In this document: positions 8,679 to 31,762 of the stretch, one piece after another
Position numbering within the stretch: the stretch's first letter is position 1
Layout of the letters: every line of letters begins with the position of its first letter
DNA from: Chlorobiota bacterium
GTDB taxonomy: Bacteria; Bacteroidota; Ignavibacteria; Tepidaquicellales; OLB5
Direction: 5' to 3'
DNA: 32,221 bases
NCBI GenBank assembly: GCA_022616535.1
Contig: JAKEEM010000032.1
Coordinates: 1-32,221, forward strand
Notes under the pieces: generated by a model
Told to the model about the DNA's origin: nothing
Databases searched by the model: none
What the model saw: only the letters and a program-made list of their open reading frames with translations
Made by a program: the position numbers and the translations under genes

Positions 8679-8691
8679 TTTATATAAAAGA

Positions 8692-9055
8692 GGAAAGCTC
8701 AGGCAGCCGCTCCAATTATTTTTGGGGAGGAAAGTCCGAACACTCAAGAGCATGGTGCCCTGAGAAATCAGGGGTGCCCCCGATGAAAAGACGGGGCAAC
8801 GGAAAGTGTCACAGAAAATAAACTACCTTGAGCAATCAGGGGAAAGGTGAAAAGGCGGTGTAAGAGACCACCGGTTCATGCAGTAATGCGTGAATGCAAG
8901 ACAAACCCCGCCGGAGTGCAATGCCGCGTATAGTAACGACGTTTCGCTTTGCGAAGCAAGAGGGCTGCTCGTCCGATGTTACAGGGTTGGCAGCGTCAGA
9001 TAAATGGCTGCAGGCCTGCTTCCGCAGGTTACAGAATTCGGCTTATGGGCTTTCC
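8692..9055 (+). ncRNA. rnpB: RNase P RNA, bacterial type A
   Basis: The catalytic RNA that matures tRNA 5' ends. The ends were set from the P1 helix: GGAAAGCTCA at 8692-8701 pairs with TGGGCTTTCC at 9046-9055. Conserved landmarks appear in order: GAGGAAAGTCCGAAC near 8736, ACAGAAAATAAACT near 8811, AAGGTGAAAAGGCGGTG near 8846 with AAGAGACCACCGG after it, GCAAGACAAACCCCG near 8897, AAATGGCTGC near 9002, and ACAGAATTCGGCTTA just before P1 closes. The P1 3' strand is followed by GTTTTTATTT, which probably acts as the terminator. The gene is convergent with the DUF6265 gene. Confidence 0.96.
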
Positions 9056-9080
9056 GTTTTTATTTAACTTTATTACTTAA

Positions 9081-23546: not shown

Positions 23547-24551
23547 ATGAAAAGAATCGGAATATTATTCGGACAGGAAAACACTTTTCCCCCCGCCTTT
23601 ATTGAAAGAGTTAATTTGAAAGCGAAGGAATTAAATGCTGATATAATTGCCGAGCCGGTTTCAATCGATAAGGTTGTTCAGGGCGAGGCGATGAAATACC
23701 AAGTTATAATAGACAGGATTTCACAGGACGTTCCTTTTTACCGGGCGTATCTAAAGAATGCGGCAATAAGCGGAACAGCGGTTATAAATAACCCATTCTG
23801 GTGGAGCGCCGATGAAAAGTTTTTTAACAATTCGCTAATGACAAAAATCGGTGTGCCTGTGCCAAAGACAGTTATACTGCCTTCCAACCAGCTGCCGACT
23901 GATACAAAAGCCGACTCATTCAGAAATTTATCGTTTCCGTTGGACTGGGATGCTATATTCGCTTACATTGGATTCCCTGCTTACTTTAAGCCTCACGCAG
24001 GCGGCGGGTGGAAGAGCGTCTATAAAGTAAATAATTCCGAAGAGCTTTACCGCGCGTATAATGAAACGGGACAGCTTGTAATGATGCTTCAGGAAGAAAT
24101 TAAATTCGAAGCATATTACAGGTGCTACTGCCTTGATAGAAAGGACGTTTGGCTCATGCCTTATGAGCCGCGCAATCCCCACCACTTGAGATACATTCAG
24201 GACGGAAGTGAGATTGACCCTGCAAAGCATAAAATGCTTGCTGACACTGTTTTAAAAATTAACCGCGCACTCGGGTATGACTTCAACACTGTTGAGCTTG
24301 CCGTAAGGGACGGCGTTCCGTATGCAATTGATTTCTGCAATCCCGCGCCGGATGCTGATGTTAATTCCATTGGGAAAGTAAACTTCGAGTGGATAGTCGA
24401 AGCCGCTGCTAATATGGCAATACGCAGGGCGTTAAATCACCGCGAGGGGCTCAACAACTTAACATGGGGTGATTTTGTCTACGCTTTTGCTAATAATGAA
24501 AAAATTGAAGAAGGAATGTATGATAAGTCGTTAATGCCAAATGCAAAATGA
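23547..24551 (+). CDS. RimK-like ATP-grasp ligase
   Basis: A 334-residue protein of the ATP-grasp superfamily, which joins a carboxylate to an amine or thiol through an acyl-phosphate. The pre-ATP-grasp part (about 1-100) includes NNPFWWSADEKFFNNSLMTKIGVPVPKTV. The ATP-binding K148 is in GFPAYFKPHAGGGWKSV, with the glycine-rich loop at 152-156, and LQEEI near 183 follows. Metal ligands E250, D262 and N265 are in TVELAVRDGVPYAIDFCNP. The substrate cannot be told from sequence. Downstream neighbours on the same strand are a GCS2-type ligase, an M29 aminopeptidase and another ATP-grasp protein, which points to a peptide-like product. AAGGAG lies 13 nt before the start. Confidence 0.8.
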   Translation: MKRIGILFGQENTFPPAFIERVNLKAKELNADIIAEPVSIDKVVQGEAMKYQVIIDRISQDVPFYRAYLKNAAISGTAVINNPFWWSADEKFFNNSLMTKIGVPVPKTVILPSNQLPTDTKADSFRNLSFPLDWDAIFAYIGFPAYFKPHAGGGWKSVYKVNNSEELYRAYNETGQLVMMLQEEIKFEAYYRCYCLDRKDVWLMPYEPRNPHHLRYIQDGSEIDPAKHKMLADTVLKINRALGYDFNTVELAVRDGVPYAIDFCNPAPDADVNSIGKVNFEWIVEAAANMAIRRALNHREGLNNLTWGDFVYAFANNEKIEEGMYDKSLMPNAK

Positions 24552-24601
24552 CAAATGTCAATTTGGCAGTAGAGTAGTTTTAACATTTTGGCTTGGACAT
24601 T

Positions 24602-24622
24602 TCCTGCCTGCTGCAGGCAGGA
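24602..24622. repeat. palindromic hairpin downstream of the ATP-grasp gene
   Basis: TCCTGCCTG and CAGGCAGGA form a 9-bp perfect stem with a CTG loop. A T-run follows about 8 nt later (GCGTTTTTC), so it might act as a weak terminator. It resembles in style, but not in sequence, the CCGCCTCAGGCGG repeats nearby. Confidence 0.5.
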
Positions 24623-24691
24623 CATTGCGTTTTTCTGTATATTGTTTTATTAATCAATAATATATAGATTGTGTGATTATTTAAATCATTA

Positions 24692-25801
24692 ATGTATAAG
24701 AGCGTATTTACTTTAGGAATTGAGGAAGAGTTTCAGATTGTAGACCCTGAGACGCGCCGGCTTGTATCCCATATGCAGCAGATAGTTGATTCAGGGAAAG
24801 TGTTTTTAAAAGAACAAATTAAACCCGAAATGCACGCATCGGTTGTTGAAGTCGGCACTAAAGTATGCGCCGATATACATGAAGCAAGGGCGGAGGTTAC
24901 TAATCTCAGGGCAAATCTTTCAGCGCTTGCAAAAGAAAGCGGGCTAAGGATTGCAGCAGCGGGGACTCATCCTTTTACGCACTGGAATGAAGTTAATATA
25001 ACAGACCATCCGAGATACCATGAAATTGTAAGCGAAATGCAGGAGACAGCACGGGCTAACCTGATATTCGGGCTTCATGTTCACGTTGGCGTGCCGAACA
25101 GGGAAGTCGGTATCCAGATAATGAATGCAGCGAGGTATTTTATACCTCACATTTTTGCCCTGTCTACAAACTCACCTTTTTGGCTCGGAAGAAATACGGG
25201 TTTTAAATCTTACCGTGTAAAAGTTTTTGATAAGTTTCCAAGAACGGGCATACCAGATTATTACGACAGCGTTTCTGAATTTGATAATTACGTTAATCTT
25301 CTGGTTAAAACCAACTGCATAGATAACGGAAAAAAAATCTGGTACGATATCCGTCTTCATCCGTATTTTAACACGCTGGAGTTCCGAATGTGCGATATAC
25401 CGATGCGCGTTGATGAAACAATCTGCCTTGCCGCTATAATGCAGGCAGTTGTCGTAAAGCTTTACAAGCTCATGAGGCAAAACCTCGGCTTCAGGATTTA
25501 CCGGCGCGCATTGATAAATGAAAACAAGTGGCGCGCAGCCAGGTACGGAATTGACGGCAAGCTGATTGATTTCGGAAAGCAGGAGGAAGTTGATTTCAAA
25601 ATACTCATAATGGAGCTGCTCTCATTTGTAAGCGATGTTATGGATGATTTAAACAGCTGGGACGAGGTTAACTATGTCCTGCAAATACTTCAGAACGGAA
25701 CCGGCGCGGACAGGCAGCTCACTCAGTGGGACGGCACCCAGGAAGGGTTTAAAAAAGTTGTTGATTACATTATCGAAGAAACTCATATTGGTATAACCTA
25801 A
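24692..25801 (+). CDS. carboxylate-amine ligase, GCS2/YbdK family
   Basis: A 369-residue glutamate-cysteine-ligase-like enzyme of the glutamine-synthetase fold. The metal-binding strand FTLGIEEEFQIVDPETRRL is at 7-24. Then come EMHASVVEVGT (46-56), GTHPFTHW (91-98), the HVHVGV motif (129-134), and YDIRLHPYFNTLEFRMCD near 230. These match the YbdK branch, which has weak or unknown ligase activity in E. coli, rather than the plant/proteobacterial GshA branch. It should form an amide bond using ATP; glutamate as substrate is an assumption. It sits 140 nt after the ATP-grasp gene and 27 nt before the M29 peptidase gene, so the latter two are probably one transcript. Confidence 0.87.
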   Translation: MYKSVFTLGIEEEFQIVDPETRRLVSHMQQIVDSGKVFLKEQIKPEMHASVVEVGTKVCADIHEARAEVTNLRANLSALAKESGLRIAAAGTHPFTHWNEVNITDHPRYHEIVSEMQETARANLIFGLHVHVGVPNREVGIQIMNAARYFIPHIFALSTNSPFWLGRNTGFKSYRVKVFDKFPRTGIPDYYDSVSEFDNYVNLLVKTNCIDNGKKIWYDIRLHPYFNTLEFRMCDIPMRVDETICLAAIMQAVVVKLYKLMRQNLGFRIYRRALINENKWRAARYGIDGKLIDFGKQEEVDFKILIMELLSFVSDVMDDLNSWDEVNYVLQILQNGTGADRQLTQWDGTQEGFKKVVDYIIEETHIGIT

Positions 25802-25828
25802 ACAAGTCAATAACATAATCTAATTTTA

Positions 25829-26842
25829 ATGGAGAAAACAATTACTGATTTCGACAGAGAGCTTTCCGAAGGCGCAGGCAATGCAATCAACGTCTGCTTA
25901 AAGCTTAAGCCGGAGGAAAGAGTTACAATCATTTCGGATAACGAAAATCTTGAAATAGCTTCTTCTCTTGCGGCGGAGATAAGAAAAATCGGCTCTGACT
26001 ACAGTCTAATGGTTATCGAAGATTATGCACCGCGCCCGATTAAAAGTATGCCCGCTCCGATACTTGAAGACCTTGCAATGTCACAGGTGAGCATTTTTTG
26101 TGCCTCCGCTCATGAAGGCGAGCTCGGCTCAAGAATCCAGATGACGGAGGTAATCGACAGGCATAAAATCCGCCACGCACATATGGTAAATATAGAAAAG
26201 CAAATAATGAAGGAAGGTATGAGGGCAGATTTTATTAAAATAGATGAGATCAGCAGAAGGTTAATCGAAAAAGCGCGCAAAACCAAGATCATAGCAGTAA
26301 AATCGAATGCAGGAACGGATTTAACTGCTGAGTTTTCTCCAAAGCTGAAATGGATTAAAACAAGCGGGTTGATCTCTGCGGAGAAGTGGGGCAATCTGCC
26401 AGGGGGAGAGATATTCACCTCGCCGCTAAATGTTAACGGTGTATTTGCGGTGGACGGAGTCGTAGGCGACTACCTTTGCAAAAAATACGGCGATTTGAAG
26501 GATAATCCGATTATAATAGAGATTAAAGATTCCCGGATTACGAATATGAGCTGTGAGAATAAAACGCTGCTTGAAGAATTTACAAGGTATACTATGACGG
26601 ATGAAAACTCAAACCGTGTGGGTGAGTTTGCAATCGGCACGAACATTTGCCTTAAACACGTTATAGGTAACATTCTGCAGGATGAAAAGCTTCCCACAGT
26701 GCACATGGCTTTCGGTCACCCCTATACTAAATACACAGGCGCTGATTGGGAATCTACGACTCATATTGACTGCGTAAGCGTCAAGTGCAGTGCTTGGTTC
26801 GACGGCGCGCTTGTTATGGAAAAAGGAAAGTTCCTAATTTGA
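25829..26842 (+). CDS. M29-family metallo-aminopeptidase
   Basis: A 337-residue protein related to the thermophilic aminopeptidases AmpS/aminopeptidase T (MEROPS M29). Two-metal ligands are recognisable: E194 in NLPGGEIFTSP, E266 in NRVGEFAIGTN, H292 in VHMAFGH, and H312 and D314 in THIDCV. Tyr299 or Tyr302 in HPYTKY fits the catalytic tyrosine. It is about 70 residues shorter than the roughly 410-residue classic enzymes, mostly in the N-terminal half, which suggests a narrowed substrate range. Placement between two ligase genes suggests it trims or hydrolyses their product, or processes a precursor. General peptide turnover is the simpler alternative. Confidence 0.82.
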   Translation: MEKTITDFDRELSEGAGNAINVCLKLKPEERVTIISDNENLEIASSLAAEIRKIGSDYSLMVIEDYAPRPIKSMPAPILEDLAMSQVSIFCASAHEGELGSRIQMTEVIDRHKIRHAHMVNIEKQIMKEGMRADFIKIDEISRRLIEKARKTKIIAVKSNAGTDLTAEFSPKLKWIKTSGLISAEKWGNLPGGEIFTSPLNVNGVFAVDGVVGDYLCKKYGDLKDNPIIIEIKDSRITNMSCENKTLLEEFTRYTMTDENSNRVGEFAIGTNICLKHVIGNILQDEKLPTVHMAFGHPYTKYTGADWESTTHIDCVSVKCSAWFDGALVMEKGKFLI

Positions 26843-26871
26843 ATTTTTTTTGTTTTTGTTTTCATAGCATG

Positions 26872-26910
26872 GACAGAACGACTCGTCCGCCTCAGGCGGA
26901 ATGTTCTGTC
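26872..26910. repeat. nested palindromic repeat, copy 2
   Basis: GACAGAAC (26872-26879) and GTTCTGTC (26903-26910) enclose the same TCCGCCTCAGGCGGA core (26886-26900) found at 23297. It starts 30 nt after the M29 stop and could fold as a long hairpin in RNA. There is no T-tract, so a terminator role is doubtful. Confidence 0.65.
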
Positions 26911-26977
26911 ACTGCTTGTAATAAATATTTACCCTGCTTTTGATTTTTATATCGATAAAGAATCAATCCGAGGAAGC

Positions 26978-27084
26978 TTGTCTTACCCATGAAAACGGGT
27001 ATCCAGGGAAGACCATCGCTCAAAGCCTGAATTTTCCCTGCTCTTAAAGTTTGTCTCTGGATTCCGCCTTTGCGGGAATGACAA
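26978..27084. mobile_element. MITE-like inverted-repeat element, 107 bp
   Basis: The left arm 26978-27009 starts TTGTCTTACCCATG and ends TATCCAGGGA. The right arm 27054-27084, read on the other strand, starts TTGTCATTCCCGCA and ends AATCCAGAGA. The two arms match over about 31 nt with scattered differences. Each arm has its own small hairpin (CCCATGAAAACGGG; CCGCCTTTGCGGG). The 44-nt centre encodes nothing. The right end resembles the GGATTCCGC...GCGGGAATGAC type of intergenic repeat known from many genomes. No transposase is in the window, and target duplications are not obvious. Confidence 0.55.
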
Positions 27085-27221
27085 AATGTGTTTACTCTAA
27101 TAGATAATTTCGTATCGGCAATTTTCAGATGCCGTTTAATAGCGAAATAATACAGTTTGATATTAAAAACTCCCTTAGCTTTTACCTTTTTACTTTTGCA
27201 TTTTTACTGTTTACTTGCAAT

Positions 27222-28409
27222 ATGGTTCCTGAAATACGAAAAAAATATAACTCAGAGTTTACTGATGAAAAATTCCTTGCGTTTCTCGATGATTTAAATT
27301 CTTCCTTTGGCTTTAAAATTGATTTCAGGATTGCCGAGACCCCGATTTTCATTGGCAAAGAATTCAAAAACGAAATTCTTAAGGCAGTCGGTGAAATTAC
27401 GGGGTATTTAACAAGCGATGACTACAAAAAGCTTTCGCTGAACGCAATTCCCCAAGGAAACCAAGTGCCAAATGACCCCGGCTACACGGATATGATTGCC
27501 CTTGATTTTGCAATCTGCAAAGATGAAAAAGGTAATTTTATTCCGCAGCTGATTGAGCTGCAAGGGTTTTCATCGCTCTTTTTTTACGAGCTGCTGCAAA
27601 ACGCAATGTACAGGAAGCACTTCGATATTCCTGAAAGATTCGGTGGACTGTTTGGAATCCATAAGCCCGAGGAATATATTGAAGTGCTTAGGAGCGTTAT
27701 CGTAGGAGACTCAAATCCCGAGAATGTGATACTGCTTGAGATAGAGCCGGAGAAACAGAAAACAAGAATTGATTTTGAGTGCTGTTACAAATTTATCGGC
27801 GTTAAGCCCGTTTGCCTGACCAAAGTTAAAAAAGAGGGTAAGGATTTATTTTATGAATCCAACGGCAGGAAAATTAAAATTGAGCGTATATACAACCGTG
27901 TAATCTTCGATGAGCTTAACAGGCGAGAGGATTTGAATTTTAATTTCAGTTTTTTTGATGAGCTGAATATTAAATGGATACCCCACCCGAACTGGTTTTT
28001 CAGAATCAGCAAATATACACTTCCGTTTTTAAAGAGCAAATATGTGCCCGATACGAATTTCCTCAGTGATTTCGATTCATTTCCCGATGATTTGGAAAAC
28101 TACGTCTTAAAGCCGCTGTTTTCATTTGCGGGTGTCGGAGTGCAGTATGATGTAACAAAGGAAGTGCTGGATAAAATCAATGACAGGCAGAATTACATAC
28201 TTCAGCGGAAAATCATTTACGAGCCGGTGATTGAAACTCCCGACGTTCCTGCAAAAGCTGAGCTTCGCCTGCTCTTTGTCCACAATGACGGCAAGCCGTA
28301 TCTTATTAACAACCTTGTCCGCCTCAGCAAAGGCAAGATGATGGGGGTTGACTTCAACAAGGAAAAAACCTGGGTCGGCTCAAGCTTAGCGTACTTTGAG
28401 CATTTGTAA
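27222..28409 (+). CDS. divergent ATP-grasp-like protein
   Basis: A 395-residue protein with an ATP-grasp-like C-terminal half. The nucleotide-binding lysine is in YVLKPLFSFAGVGVQY (about residues 294-309 from this start), then YILQRKIIYEP, a conserved-looking Glu in AKAELRLLFV, and INNLVRLSKG. The N-terminal half has NDPGYTDMIALDFAICKDEKG and QLIELQGFSSLFFYE, which resemble the substrate-binding part of glutathionylspermidine-synthase-like ligases. No family name is certain. I prefer the ATG at 27222 (MVPEIRKKYN). An ATG at 27129 would add 31 residues ending in a hydrophobic FYLFTFAFLLFTC run that does not suit a cytosolic ligase. Fourth gene of the candidate amide-ligation block. Confidence 0.65.
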   Translation: MVPEIRKKYNSEFTDEKFLAFLDDLNSSFGFKIDFRIAETPIFIGKEFKNEILKAVGEITGYLTSDDYKKLSLNAIPQGNQVPNDPGYTDMIALDFAICKDEKGNFIPQLIELQGFSSLFFYELLQNAMYRKHFDIPERFGGLFGIHKPEEYIEVLRSVIVGDSNPENVILLEIEPEKQKTRIDFECCYKFIGVKPVCLTKVKKEGKDLFYESNGRKIKIERIYNRVIFDELNRREDLNFNFSFFDELNIKWIPHPNWFFRISKYTLPFLKSKYVPDTNFLSDFDSFPDDLENYVLKPLFSFAGVGVQYDVTKEVLDKINDRQNYILQRKIIYEPVIETPDVPAKAELRLLFVHNDGKPYLINNLVRLSKGKMMGVDFNKEKTWVGSSLAYFEHL

Positions 28410-28487: not shown

Positions 28488-30062
28488 TTGGATTTATTGA
28501 CTATAAAGCAAGCTAGCAAATGGGCAAGTTCATTCTTAAATAAGAATGTAACGGAGTCAAATATTGCATATTTGATTAATTACGGAAGAGTACCTAAAAA
28601 AGGGGAAAACGGTAACGTTTATGTTTCTAAGAAGGATTTAGAGAAATACTATAGTTCTTATAATGGGAATAAGGAAATTGATTGGAAAAGCAAGCTTGGA
28701 GATGATTTAAACTGGCATCTTTCATTTGAGCAGTATAAAGAAGCTGAAACAACAAAACATGTCCACCGTTTACATCCTTACAAAGGTAAGTTCATTCCTC
28801 AGCTTGTTGAATATTTTTTAGATAGCCATACTGATGAATTTAAAAAGGAAGTTTATTTTAATAAAGGGGATATAATATTAGACCCGTTTTGCGGAAGCGG
28901 AACAGCTTTAGTTCAGGCAAACGAACTTGGAATTCATGCAATTGGAATAGATATTTCAGAGTTTAACAGTCTTATTTCAAATGTTAAGATAAAAAAATAC
29001 AATATTACAGATGTTCAAATGGAAATAAAAAGAATAACAAATTCGTTGAGTAAATATTTGCTAGATTCTCATGTTATTGAGTTTGATGATGAGTTAGCTA
29101 ACGAGCTGTATAAATTTAATACTAAATATTTTCCAAGTCCTGAATATAGGTACAAAGTAAATAATGACTTAATAAATGAGTTTAAATACTCTGAGGAAAA
29201 AGTTAAAATATTTCTTCCCGTTTACGAGAGGCTTGTTAAACAATACAGAATAAAACTAAAGCAAAGTGACAAGGAAAGGTTTTTGGATCAATGGTATTTA
29301 ACCCCTGTTAGACATGAGATTGAAAAAGTATTTGAAGAAGTTAAAAAAATAAAAAATCCTGACACGAAAAAGATTATTACGGTTATACTAAGCAGAACGA
29401 TTCGCTCTTGCAGAGCTACAACACATTCGGATTTAGCAACATTAAAAGAACCCGTGAGTTCAGTTTATTATTGCTCAAAGCACAACAAAATTTGCAAACC
29501 GTTATTTTCAATAAAAAAAATGTGGGATAGATATTCTAAAGATTCAGCAAGCCGTTTGGTTCAATTTAATAAGCTTAGAACTGATACATACCAAATTTGC
29601 CTGTCGGATGATTCAGAAACTATTGATATAATTGAAAAGCTAAATAAAAAAAATAAAATACTGGCAATGTTTGTAAAAAAGCAGAAAATAGCAGGAATAT
29701 TTTCAAGCCCGCCTTATGTTGGTTTAATTGATTATCATGAACAGCATGCTTACGCTTACGACTTATTCGGATTTAAGCGCAGGGATGAGTTGGAAATCGG
29801 ACCTTTAAGCAAAGGACAGAGCAAGGAGGCAAGAAACAGTTATGTTGAATCAATAGCTAAAGTTTTAAATAACTGCAAGAAATATTTTAATGAAGATTAT
29901 AATGTATTTTTGGTTGCAAATGATAAATACAATTTGTACCCTGCAATTGCAGAAAAAGCTGGAATGAAGATTGTAAATCAATTCAAGCGCCCTGTCTTAA
30001 ACAGAACAGAGAAAGATAAAGGGGCATATTCAGAAATAATTTTTCATTTTAAAAATAAATAG
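28488..30062 (+). CDS. type II DNA methyltransferase (N4/N6 amino type) with N-terminal HTH
   Basis: A 524-residue SAM-dependent DNA amino-methylase. The N-terminal 60 residues (LTIKQASKWASSFLNKN, then NIAYLINYGRVPKKGENGN and YVSKKDLEKYY) look like an excisionase/MerR-type winged helix. HRLHPYKGKFIPQL is at 93-106, SAM-binding DPFCGSGTALVQA at 132-144, and catalytic SSPPY at 406-410. SPPY is common in N4-cytosine methylases. A long middle region (about 180-400) probably carries target recognition. The start is TTG. The endonuclease gene begins on the next base after its stop. DNA is visibly more AT-rich than upstream genes, as expected for a transferred restriction-modification locus. Confidence 0.88.
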   Translation: MDLLTIKQASKWASSFLNKNVTESNIAYLINYGRVPKKGENGNVYVSKKDLEKYYSSYNGNKEIDWKSKLGDDLNWHLSFEQYKEAETTKHVHRLHPYKGKFIPQLVEYFLDSHTDEFKKEVYFNKGDIILDPFCGSGTALVQANELGIHAIGIDISEFNSLISNVKIKKYNITDVQMEIKRITNSLSKYLLDSHVIEFDDELANELYKFNTKYFPSPEYRYKVNNDLINEFKYSEEKVKIFLPVYERLVKQYRIKLKQSDKERFLDQWYLTPVRHEIEKVFEEVKKIKNPDTKKIITVILSRTIRSCRATTHSDLATLKEPVSSVYYCSKHNKICKPLFSIKKMWDRYSKDSASRLVQFNKLRTDTYQICLSDDSETIDIIEKLNKKNKILAMFVKKQKIAGIFSSPPYVGLIDYHEQHAYAYDLFGFKRRDELEIGPLSKGQSKEARNSYVESIAKVLNNCKKYFNEDYNVFLVANDKYNLYPAIAEKAGMKIVNQFKRPVLNRTEKDKGAYSEIIFHFKNK

Positions 30063-30842
30063 TTGACTCTTACAAAATTAAAAATAAAGAAAATTGAAAA
30101 CGTTTTAATTAACAGTTTAAGAAACAAATTCCTTAACTATAAACCTGAACCTGCTTCAATGCCTTTTCATACAAGATTGCTGGGAAAAGATAGATTAGCT
30201 TTATATTCATTTATACATTCGTTAAGTACAAACTTTGGCACAGCTATTTTTGAGCCAGTTGCAATTACATTGGCTGAAGACCGATTTAAAAAAGCATTAA
30301 AACAGCAAACAGCGGGGCAGCAAATAAGCACGGAAGCTCACCGTGTTATTCAGGAAATAATGAACGGTTTGGAAACGGCAACTGCCCAACCAAATAAGGT
30401 TAATGAATTAGAAAGATTAAGGAAAGTTTGCCAAAAAGGAAAACTGAATAATGTACGAATGACCAAAGTAGATATTTGGTTAGAAAGTAAAACTGGTGAA
30501 CTGCACCTTTTTGATTTAAAAACGGCAAAACCGAATGCAGGAGGTTTTCGAGAATTCAAAAGAACTCTACTTGAATGGGCTGCCGCAGTACTATTAGTAA
30601 ATCCAAATTCAAAAATTAATACTTTAATTGCAATCCCGTACAATCCTTACGAACCAGAACCATACAAAAGGTGGACAATGAGAGGAATGCTCGATTTAGA
30701 AAGAGAGCTTAAAGTAGGAAAAGAATTTTGGGACTTCGTTGGTGGCAAAGGGGCATATGAAGAATTGCTTGATTGCTTTGAAAGAGTTGGAATAGAACTT
30801 AGACCTGAAATAGACAATTATTTTAAGAAATTTAATCGTTGA
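30063..30842 (+). CDS. type II restriction endonuclease, TdeIII/MjaII family
   Basis: A 259-residue endonuclease with a TTG start, abutting the methylase stop. It matches my memory of the TdeIII family: MPFHTRLLGKDRLALYSFIHSL at 33-54, NFGTAIFEPVAITLAEDRFKKA, LLEWAAAVLLVNP, and TLIAIPYNPYEPEPYKRWTMRGMLDL. The PD-(D/E)xK-type site is D137 in TKVDIW with D151-x-K153 in FDLKT. Characterised relatives cut GGNCC, so that is the likely target, although specificity can drift. The protein is full length and looks active. The ready pairing with a methylase supports a working type II system. Confidence 0.85.
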   Translation: MTLTKLKIKKIENVLINSLRNKFLNYKPEPASMPFHTRLLGKDRLALYSFIHSLSTNFGTAIFEPVAITLAEDRFKKALKQQTAGQQISTEAHRVIQEIMNGLETATAQPNKVNELERLRKVCQKGKLNNVRMTKVDIWLESKTGELHLFDLKTAKPNAGGFREFKRTLLEWAAAVLLVNPNSKINTLIAIPYNPYEPEPYKRWTMRGMLDLERELKVGKEFWDFVGGKGAYEELLDCFERVGIELRPEIDNYFKKFNR

Positions 30843-31018: not shown

Positions 31019-31762
31019 ATGACCCGCAAAATAATATTTTTCTCTCTTTTTTTACTAATATCGGGATTATTTTCTCTTTCGCACAGCCAGTTTCTGCCGA
31101 GTCTTGCCCTTGCAGGGGGACCCTCTGCAGGGTGGCATTTTAATGACACAAAGGATTTAAACTTAGAACTTAAAAACGCCGGCTTTCCTGAAATGTCTGA
31201 AAACGGTTTTTTTACTTTAGGCGGCGGAGGATTTATTGACCTGCCGATGCAGAAGAAAAATTTCATTAGAATAAGCGGGTTTGGAAGCGGTTTTACATCT
31301 AAGCAGAGCAAAAGAATTAATGATACACTGACTAAAGCCACGAATTATTCATTAGGTCAGGGGGGAATAGGGCTGGAATATATTATCCCTCTTGGAAACA
31401 TGCTTGATATAACCATTGGCGCATTGTTTTCAACAGGAACACTAAAGCTCGAGCTTTATCAGTACGGGAACGATTACGGAAGCTACAATACTATATTCGG
31501 GGAACTTACATCAAACGGCACGTCATCAAATCTTTCAAGGGTTTTCCGTTCAAGGTTTTATTCCGTTCAGCCGCAAGTTGGATTGGGTTTAATGCTAAGA
31601 AAATTCTTGTATCTCAAAATCGATGTCGGCTATCAATTGAGTTCACAAGGGACGTGGAGAGTTGATAATGACGTGGAGGTCGAAAATTTCCCTGAAACAA
31701 TAAAATCAAACGGGCTAATTATAAACGCAGGATTAAACTTCGGAATATTTTTCAGAGATTAA
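31019..31762 (+). CDS. outer-membrane beta-barrel-like protein
   Basis: A 247-residue exported protein. The Sec signal is MTRKIIFFSLFLLISGLFSLSHS. The mature part alternates polar and hydrophobic residues with Gly/aromatic-rich strands (FFTLGGGGFIDL, RISGFGSGFTS, GGIGLEYIIPLGNMLDITIGALF, VQPQVGLGLMLRKFLYLKIDVGYQL) and ends in LNFGIFF, a terminal-strand pattern ending in an aromatic, apart from the last two residues. About eight strands fit an OmpA/OmpW-size barrel. No specific family is recognised. It follows the restriction gene by 176 nt and ends before a clear terminator, so it is probably its own unit. Confidence 0.65.
   Translation: MTRKIIFFSLFLLISGLFSLSHSQFLPSLALAGGPSAGWHFNDTKDLNLELKNAGFPEMSENGFFTLGGGGFIDLPMQKKNFIRISGFGSGFTSKQSKRINDTLTKATNYSLGQGGIGLEYIIPLGNMLDITIGALFSTGTLKLELYQYGNDYGSYNTIFGELTSNGTSSNLSRVFRSRFYSVQPQVGLGLMLRKFLYLKIDVGYQLSSQGTWRVDNDVEVENFPETIKSNGLIINAGLNFGIFFRD

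Follow-up and report, generated by a model that had tools for sequence, protein, structure and literature searches.

A candidate amide-ligation pathway of three predicted ligases and an exchangeable hydrolase in Bacteroidota and Verrucomicrobia

RimK attaches glutamate to ribosomal protein S6, and in PuuA/PuuD and butirosin-type schemes a gamma-glutamyl group added by a ligase is later removed again, with PuuD being a hydrolase of the class-I glutamine amidotransferase (GATase) fold. The nearest precedent for the locus considered here is provided by the predicted amidoligase gene neighbourhoods of Iyer et al. 2008 (PMC2588565). That work also relates GCS2 to the Pup ligase PafA, and cites Lehmann 2004 for the gamma-glutamyl-cysteine ligase activity of YbdK.

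The four genes and their products

The window, i.e. the whole 32,221-nucleotide stretch of Chlorobiota DNA analysed, contains four consecutive genes on one strand which had been proposed to form an amide-ligation pathway: an ATP-grasp protein (AG1), a GCS2-type ligase, an M29-like metallopeptidase and a second ATP-grasp protein (AG2). The four reading frames are intact and in the places originally given for them (Table 1). The stem-loop upstream is terminator-like and would close the preceding DUF1501 unit, setting the ligase block apart from it.

Table 1. Features of the ligase block and its upstream border, in window coordinates
Feature	Position	Strand	Basis
Terminator-like stem-loop	23052..23075	+	10-pair stem, pattern match only; such sites slightly commoner than in shuffles
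AG1, predicted RimK-like ATP-grasp ligase, 334 aa	23547..24551	+	TIGR00768 matches, invariant residues
GCS2, predicted YbdK-type carboxylate-amine ligase, 369 aa	24692..25801	+	PF04107, NF010039, YbdK 1r8g
Predicted M29-like metallopeptidase, 337 aa, hydrolase slot	25829..26842	+	PF02073, dimetal ligands, fold
AG2, predicted divergent ATP-grasp, 395 aa	27222..28409	+	relatives' starts, AlphaFold model, Foldseek

By its sequence, AG1 is predicted to be a RimK-like ATP-grasp protein. It has profile matches to several ATP-grasp families, and 25 of 26 family sequences match TIGR00768 (rimK_fam) at E <0.001, the best at 4.9e-12, with AG1 scoring below the curated cut-off of that model (27.2 versus 143.4 bits). 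K148, E250, D262 and N265, singled out originally as key residues and matching the ATP-binding Lys and the Mg-binding Glu, Asp and Asn of ATP-grasp proteins, are invariant in all 26 aligned sequences. Membership of the R2K clade was considered and set aside, the match being sub-threshold only and the CDC123/R2K paper describing no GCS2 context. One AG1 homologue, at L053:7687-8673 of genome G038, has lost the glycine-rich loop in a genome without GCS2 and AG2 partners, and is altered or repurposed.

GCS2 can be assigned to the YbdK-type carboxylate-amine ligases, which it is predicted to join on passing the cut-offs of PF04107 (219.6 bits versus 21, E 7.6e-65), NCBIfam NF010039 (536.7 versus 371, E 2.2e-161) and TIGR02050 (293.4 versus 176.4). 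YbdK itself (1r8g) matches at E 2.7e-43, and in the HVHVGV motif noted at the outset H129 and H131 are invariant among the relatives aligned.

The third product is a predicted M29-like metallopeptidase, passing PF02073 with 66.4 bits against a cut-off of 27. Its two-metal ligands (E194, E266, H292, H312 and D314), originally pointed out as key residues, are unchanged in all 19 aligned sequences; in the alignment E194, E266 and H292 fall on ligands of AmpS (1zjc), whereas H312 and D314 fall on His318 and Asp320 of NicX, positions which we take to be metal ligands in those enzymes. By TM-score the model (pLDDT 76) lies nearest to NicX (7cup, TM 0.70), and it also resembles AmpT, AmpS and PepS. 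Despite that likeness of fold, a NicX-like dioxygenase was rejected as an identity because the first Glu of the ligand set, absent from NicX in the alignment, is kept in 19 of 19 M29 sequences.

AG2 is a divergent protein. Its open reading frame begins at 27129, yet none of 21 aligned relatives starts earlier than M32 and, in the genome from which the window comes, the profile matches over 27222-28403, so that the start is most likely at 27222, giving 395 aa. Sequence matches are weak: PF03738 at E 0.21, 11.1 bits against a curated cut-off of 29.3 (E 0.002 in the best relative), and YgiC at E 0.2-0.4. The AlphaFold model (pLDDT 87.8, pTM 0.88) gave the fold check that the original prediction had called for. 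With Foldseek it matched the glutathionylspermidine-synthase-like 3n6x (E 6.2e-14, TM 0.60/0.54), YgiC (E 3.5e-12), eukaryotic glutathione synthetase (E 4.5e-12) and the fungal amide ligase Cp1B, all of these at E 6e-14 to 9e-10. As modelled, AG2 is clearly a divergent ATP-grasp protein with a fold of the glutathione-synthetase, glutathionylspermidine-synthetase and YgiC kind.

Other features of the window need only brief mention. The gap between the M29 gene and AG2 has at 27059-27082 a palindrome, GGATTCCGCCTTTGCGGGAATGAC, which resembles dispersed intergenic repeats and occurs once in the window; no remnant was found in that gap of the lipoprotein-like gene that several relatives have inserted there. 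After AG2, 28488-30842 encodes a Type II methyltransferase (PDLC03249, E 1e-230) and a TdeIII-like restriction endonuclease (PF09520, E 9e-90), which are a separate restriction system and look inserted, since relatives have a homologue of the gene at 31019-31762 soon after AG2. An Rfam scan of the window had as its sole match an RNase P class A RNA (8691-9060, E 1.3e-61), unrelated to the block.

Ligases that keep company and a hydrolase that changes

Across 119 genomes of relatives AG1, GCS2 and AG2 are present in 54, 53 and 55 respectively, and these are largely the same genomes: AG1 and GCS2 have 52 in common, AG1 and AG2 52, and GCS2 and AG2 51 (Fisher p 1e-26 to 1e-30, with genomes taken as independent and shared descent ignored). 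On the same footing, AG1 is in 134 and AG2 in 114 of 395 genomes of the phylum, with 110 having both (p 7e-68); the 24 with AG1 and no AG2 are from some Bacteroidota families. A further 26 genomes, where in most the locus as fetched shows AG1 and GCS2 only, yielded AG2 in 25, one of these being a C-terminal fragment only. Most departures from this co-occurrence involve an incomplete genome or the end of a contig, or, in G038, the altered AG1. In three families (f5, f11 and f14) some of the ligase genes are far apart or on different contigs and still share genomes, which speaks against the independent scattering that would have refuted the original proposal.

Gene order tells a similar story. 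The arrangement AG1-GCS2-M29-AG2 recurs in many Ignavibacteria families and in Verrucomicrobia, with mostly short gaps and, in five loci, a 4-nt overlap of the GCS2 stop with the M29 start. Dyadobacter, Cryomorpha, Emticicia and other Bacteroidota have the order AG1-GCS2-GAT-AG2, GAT being a protein of the class-I GATase-like kind. The named genomes with the block also include Arcicella, Cyclobacteriaceae, Verrucomicrobia and one Cloacimonetes record. Rearranged but kept together across several phyla, the block is conserved far above chance, and the neighbourhood comparison originally suggested thus gave no sign of independent scattering. Its repeated rearrangement indicates that something other than linkage maintains the ligase set.

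The fullest form, EST-AG1-GCS2-GAT-AG2, has in addition a divergent esterase, an alpha/beta hydrolase, which also belongs to the wider operon. EST-like genes are in 51 of the 54 AG1 genomes (p 3e-18), many of them being paralogues, and the window's genome has an EST homologue elsewhere (L178, G000:C55:1821-2543).

Some neighbours have a narrower distribution and were named by eye. Seven genomes of family f14 have a histidine ammonia-lyase-like gene after AG1 (L039, L042, L043, L044, L047, L048 and L050). In Dyadobacter and close kin (L095, L101, L109, L120, L121, L124, L139, L141 and L142) a class III aminotransferase-like gene follows AG2, and its product may make an amine substrate.

What then of the hydrolase? 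The M29 subfamily, counted at E <1e-140, is in 33 of the 119 genomes and AG1 is in 32 of these; the one M29 genome lacking AG1 is 75% complete and there AG2 adjoins M29. GAT, which matches PF00117 above its cut-off and retains the Cys-His-Glu triad (C107, H209 and E211), is in seven of the 119, each of which has the ligases and lacks M29, and was seen only with AG1. Of the further 26 genomes, 22 carry GAT, 3 carry M29 and none carries both, and 34 M29 genomes set against 29 GAT genomes share none (P 3e-11, kinship ignored). A quick AG1 tree (LG+G4) calls for at least five exchanges between M29 and GAT, at least three of them forced by supported branches. In genome G016 GAT is just upstream of AG1, where its relatives in the same taxonomic order have M29 downstream of GCS2.

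M29 is therefore an interchangeable accessory and not a core component, with GAT filling the slot in most Bacteroidota. The original interpretation of the four genes is supported, with M29 refined from a fixed part to a replaceable one, GAT standing in for it in most relatives. Since neither hydrolase was found in 13 of 51 genomes with the three ligases, the slot may be optional or otherwise filled. A possible third occupant, named by eye as amidohydrolase-like and about 490 aa long, is encoded next to AG2 on the same strand in six genomes that have neither M29 nor GAT (L168-L173; five from f14, one from f15).

Replacement of one enzyme by an unrelated one around the same ligases provides a sharp handle on the chemistry: M29 and GAT probably cut the same bond. 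We infer that this bond is an amide beside an amino acid whose alpha-amino group is free, for instance a gamma-glutamyl or N-terminal aminoacyl bond.

A proposed pathway and its rivals

We consider it likely that the block is a dedicated biosynthetic pathway in which three ATP-dependent ligases from different families, working one after another, and a trimming or deprotecting hydrolase make a small peptide-like metabolite, probably a gamma-glutamyl or isopeptide one. GCS2 most likely would form an amide between an amine and the gamma-carboxylate of glutamate, the reaction type of YbdK and glutamate-cysteine ligases. AG2, whose modelled fold is that of glutathionylspermidine synthetase and the eukaryote-type glutathione synthetases, most likely would add an amino acid or amine at the other, carboxylate, end, and the RimK-like AG1 most likely a further residue. 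The hydrolase would then trim or deprotect by cutting the amide beside the amino acid with the free alpha-amino group, a step falling to the M29-like metallopeptidase in the window and to GAT, an unrelated cysteine hydrolase, in most other Bacteroidota. More tentatively, and with rather less confidence than in a pathway as such, we envisage a peptide-type metabolite, so far undescribed, that would occur in more than a quarter of the sampled genomes of the phylum and in Verrucomicrobia; three ligases working by a logic like that of glutathione synthesis would make it, and M29 or GAT would relieve it of a gamma-glutamyl or aminoacyl protecting group.

Might the acceptor instead be a protein? The GCS2-fold and RimK-like ligases would then add and extend an amino-acid or peptide tag that the peptidase removes, as with PafA/Dop and RimK. 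The relatedness of GCS2 to PafA (PMC2588565) is in keeping with this. So is the glutamylation of S6 by RimK, the enzyme nearest to AG1. However, the short reading frames of the neighbourhoods include none that is conserved beyond pieces of a lipoprotein gene and secretion-tail debris, which leaves no tag-like small gene and makes protein tagging less likely; no target protein is linked, and members of the AG2 fold group mostly make small molecules. We regard protein modification as unlikely. The absence from the neighbourhoods of a conserved precursor, as the original prediction had it, also disposes of a graspetide (RiPP) cluster, with no conserved precursor reading frame beside the ATP-grasp gene. 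A defence role was likewise rejected: PADLOC had no match for AG1, GCS2 or M29, and for AG2 only a weak one to Csx19 (E 0.0073).

A second alternative takes GAT at face value, as a true glutamine amidotransferase feeding ammonia to a ligase for a product with a terminal amide, the M29 genomes making something different from free ammonia or another amine. The PF00117 match, the intact catalytic triad and the position of the gene next to AG2 all agree with this, but a metallopeptidase cannot yield ammonia from glutamine, and yet M29 swaps repeatedly with GAT around the same ligases. That the two would act on a common bond tells against GAT as ammonia donor, and PuuD and plant GGP1 are class-I GATase-fold enzymes that do cut gamma-glutamyl bonds. 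Ammonia donation by GAT is in our judgement distinctly improbable, and hydrolysis by it the better reading.

It is a long shot that the product is a glutathione-like main cellular thiol, with gamma-Glu-Cys from GCS2 being extended by AG2. This can draw on the activity of YbdK (Lehmann 2004, cited in PMC2588565), on the eukaryote-type glutathione synthetase fold of AG2, and on the presence of the three ligases in 4 of 4 BshC-less genomes of at least 92% completeness (G096, G103, G106 and G115), too few for a test. Against it, glutathione synthesis has no third ligase and no peptidase, and almost all of the genomes, 112 of the 119, have BshC of bacillithiol synthesis, with or without the three ligases. 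The latter disfavours replacement of bacillithiol, a point which concerns a replacement thiol and not thiols as such. Finally, that unrelated house-keeping ligases are merely neighbours, sharing one locus by descent as related genomes share gene order, can scarcely be right when unlinked ligases still share genomes in f5, f11 and f14, the block is rearranged yet together in several phyla, and the hydrolases swap repeatedly.

That AG1 and AG2, a pair with no function found for it, accompany each other in 110 of the 395 genomes sampled from the phylum is of some consequence. So widespread a three-ligase set suggests a general metabolite or cofactor.

Comparison with described systems

Like the block, the neighbourhoods described by Iyer and colleagues combine peptidases with several ligases of the ATP-grasp and glutamine-synthetase (GCS2) folds. 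A 2009 survey of such neighbourhoods by Iyer may reportedly list the set of RimK-like, YbdK-like, glutathione-synthetase-like, M29/GATase-like and esterase genes. That survey aside, exchange of M29 and GATase was not found in the papers examined, and full-text searches on YbdK, COG2170, M29 and GSP-synthase neighbourhoods brought up nothing closer than PMC2588565.

The synthesis of glutathione and glutathionylspermidine shares with the block a GCS2 step and a ligase of the glutathione-synthetase, GSP-synthetase and YgiC fold. The block differs in its extra RimK-like ligase and peptidase and in having an AG2 that is under the PF03738 cut-off; in addition, bacillithiol is the likely main thiol of genomes with the block. 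PuuA/PuuD and butirosin-type protection involve other ligase families, and the block is without their oxidation genes. In fungal E-64 synthesis, as described in PMC12568646, a small peptide-like product is made with the ligase Cp1B (9cjn) and without an NRPS. Cp1B is an amide ligase that, judging by the AG2 model, shares its fold, though it is fungal, distant (13% identity) and has different partner enzymes. The system is widespread among bacteria and uncharacterised, a variant of the predicted amidoligase neighbourhoods in which the exchange of M29 and GAT is the new element.
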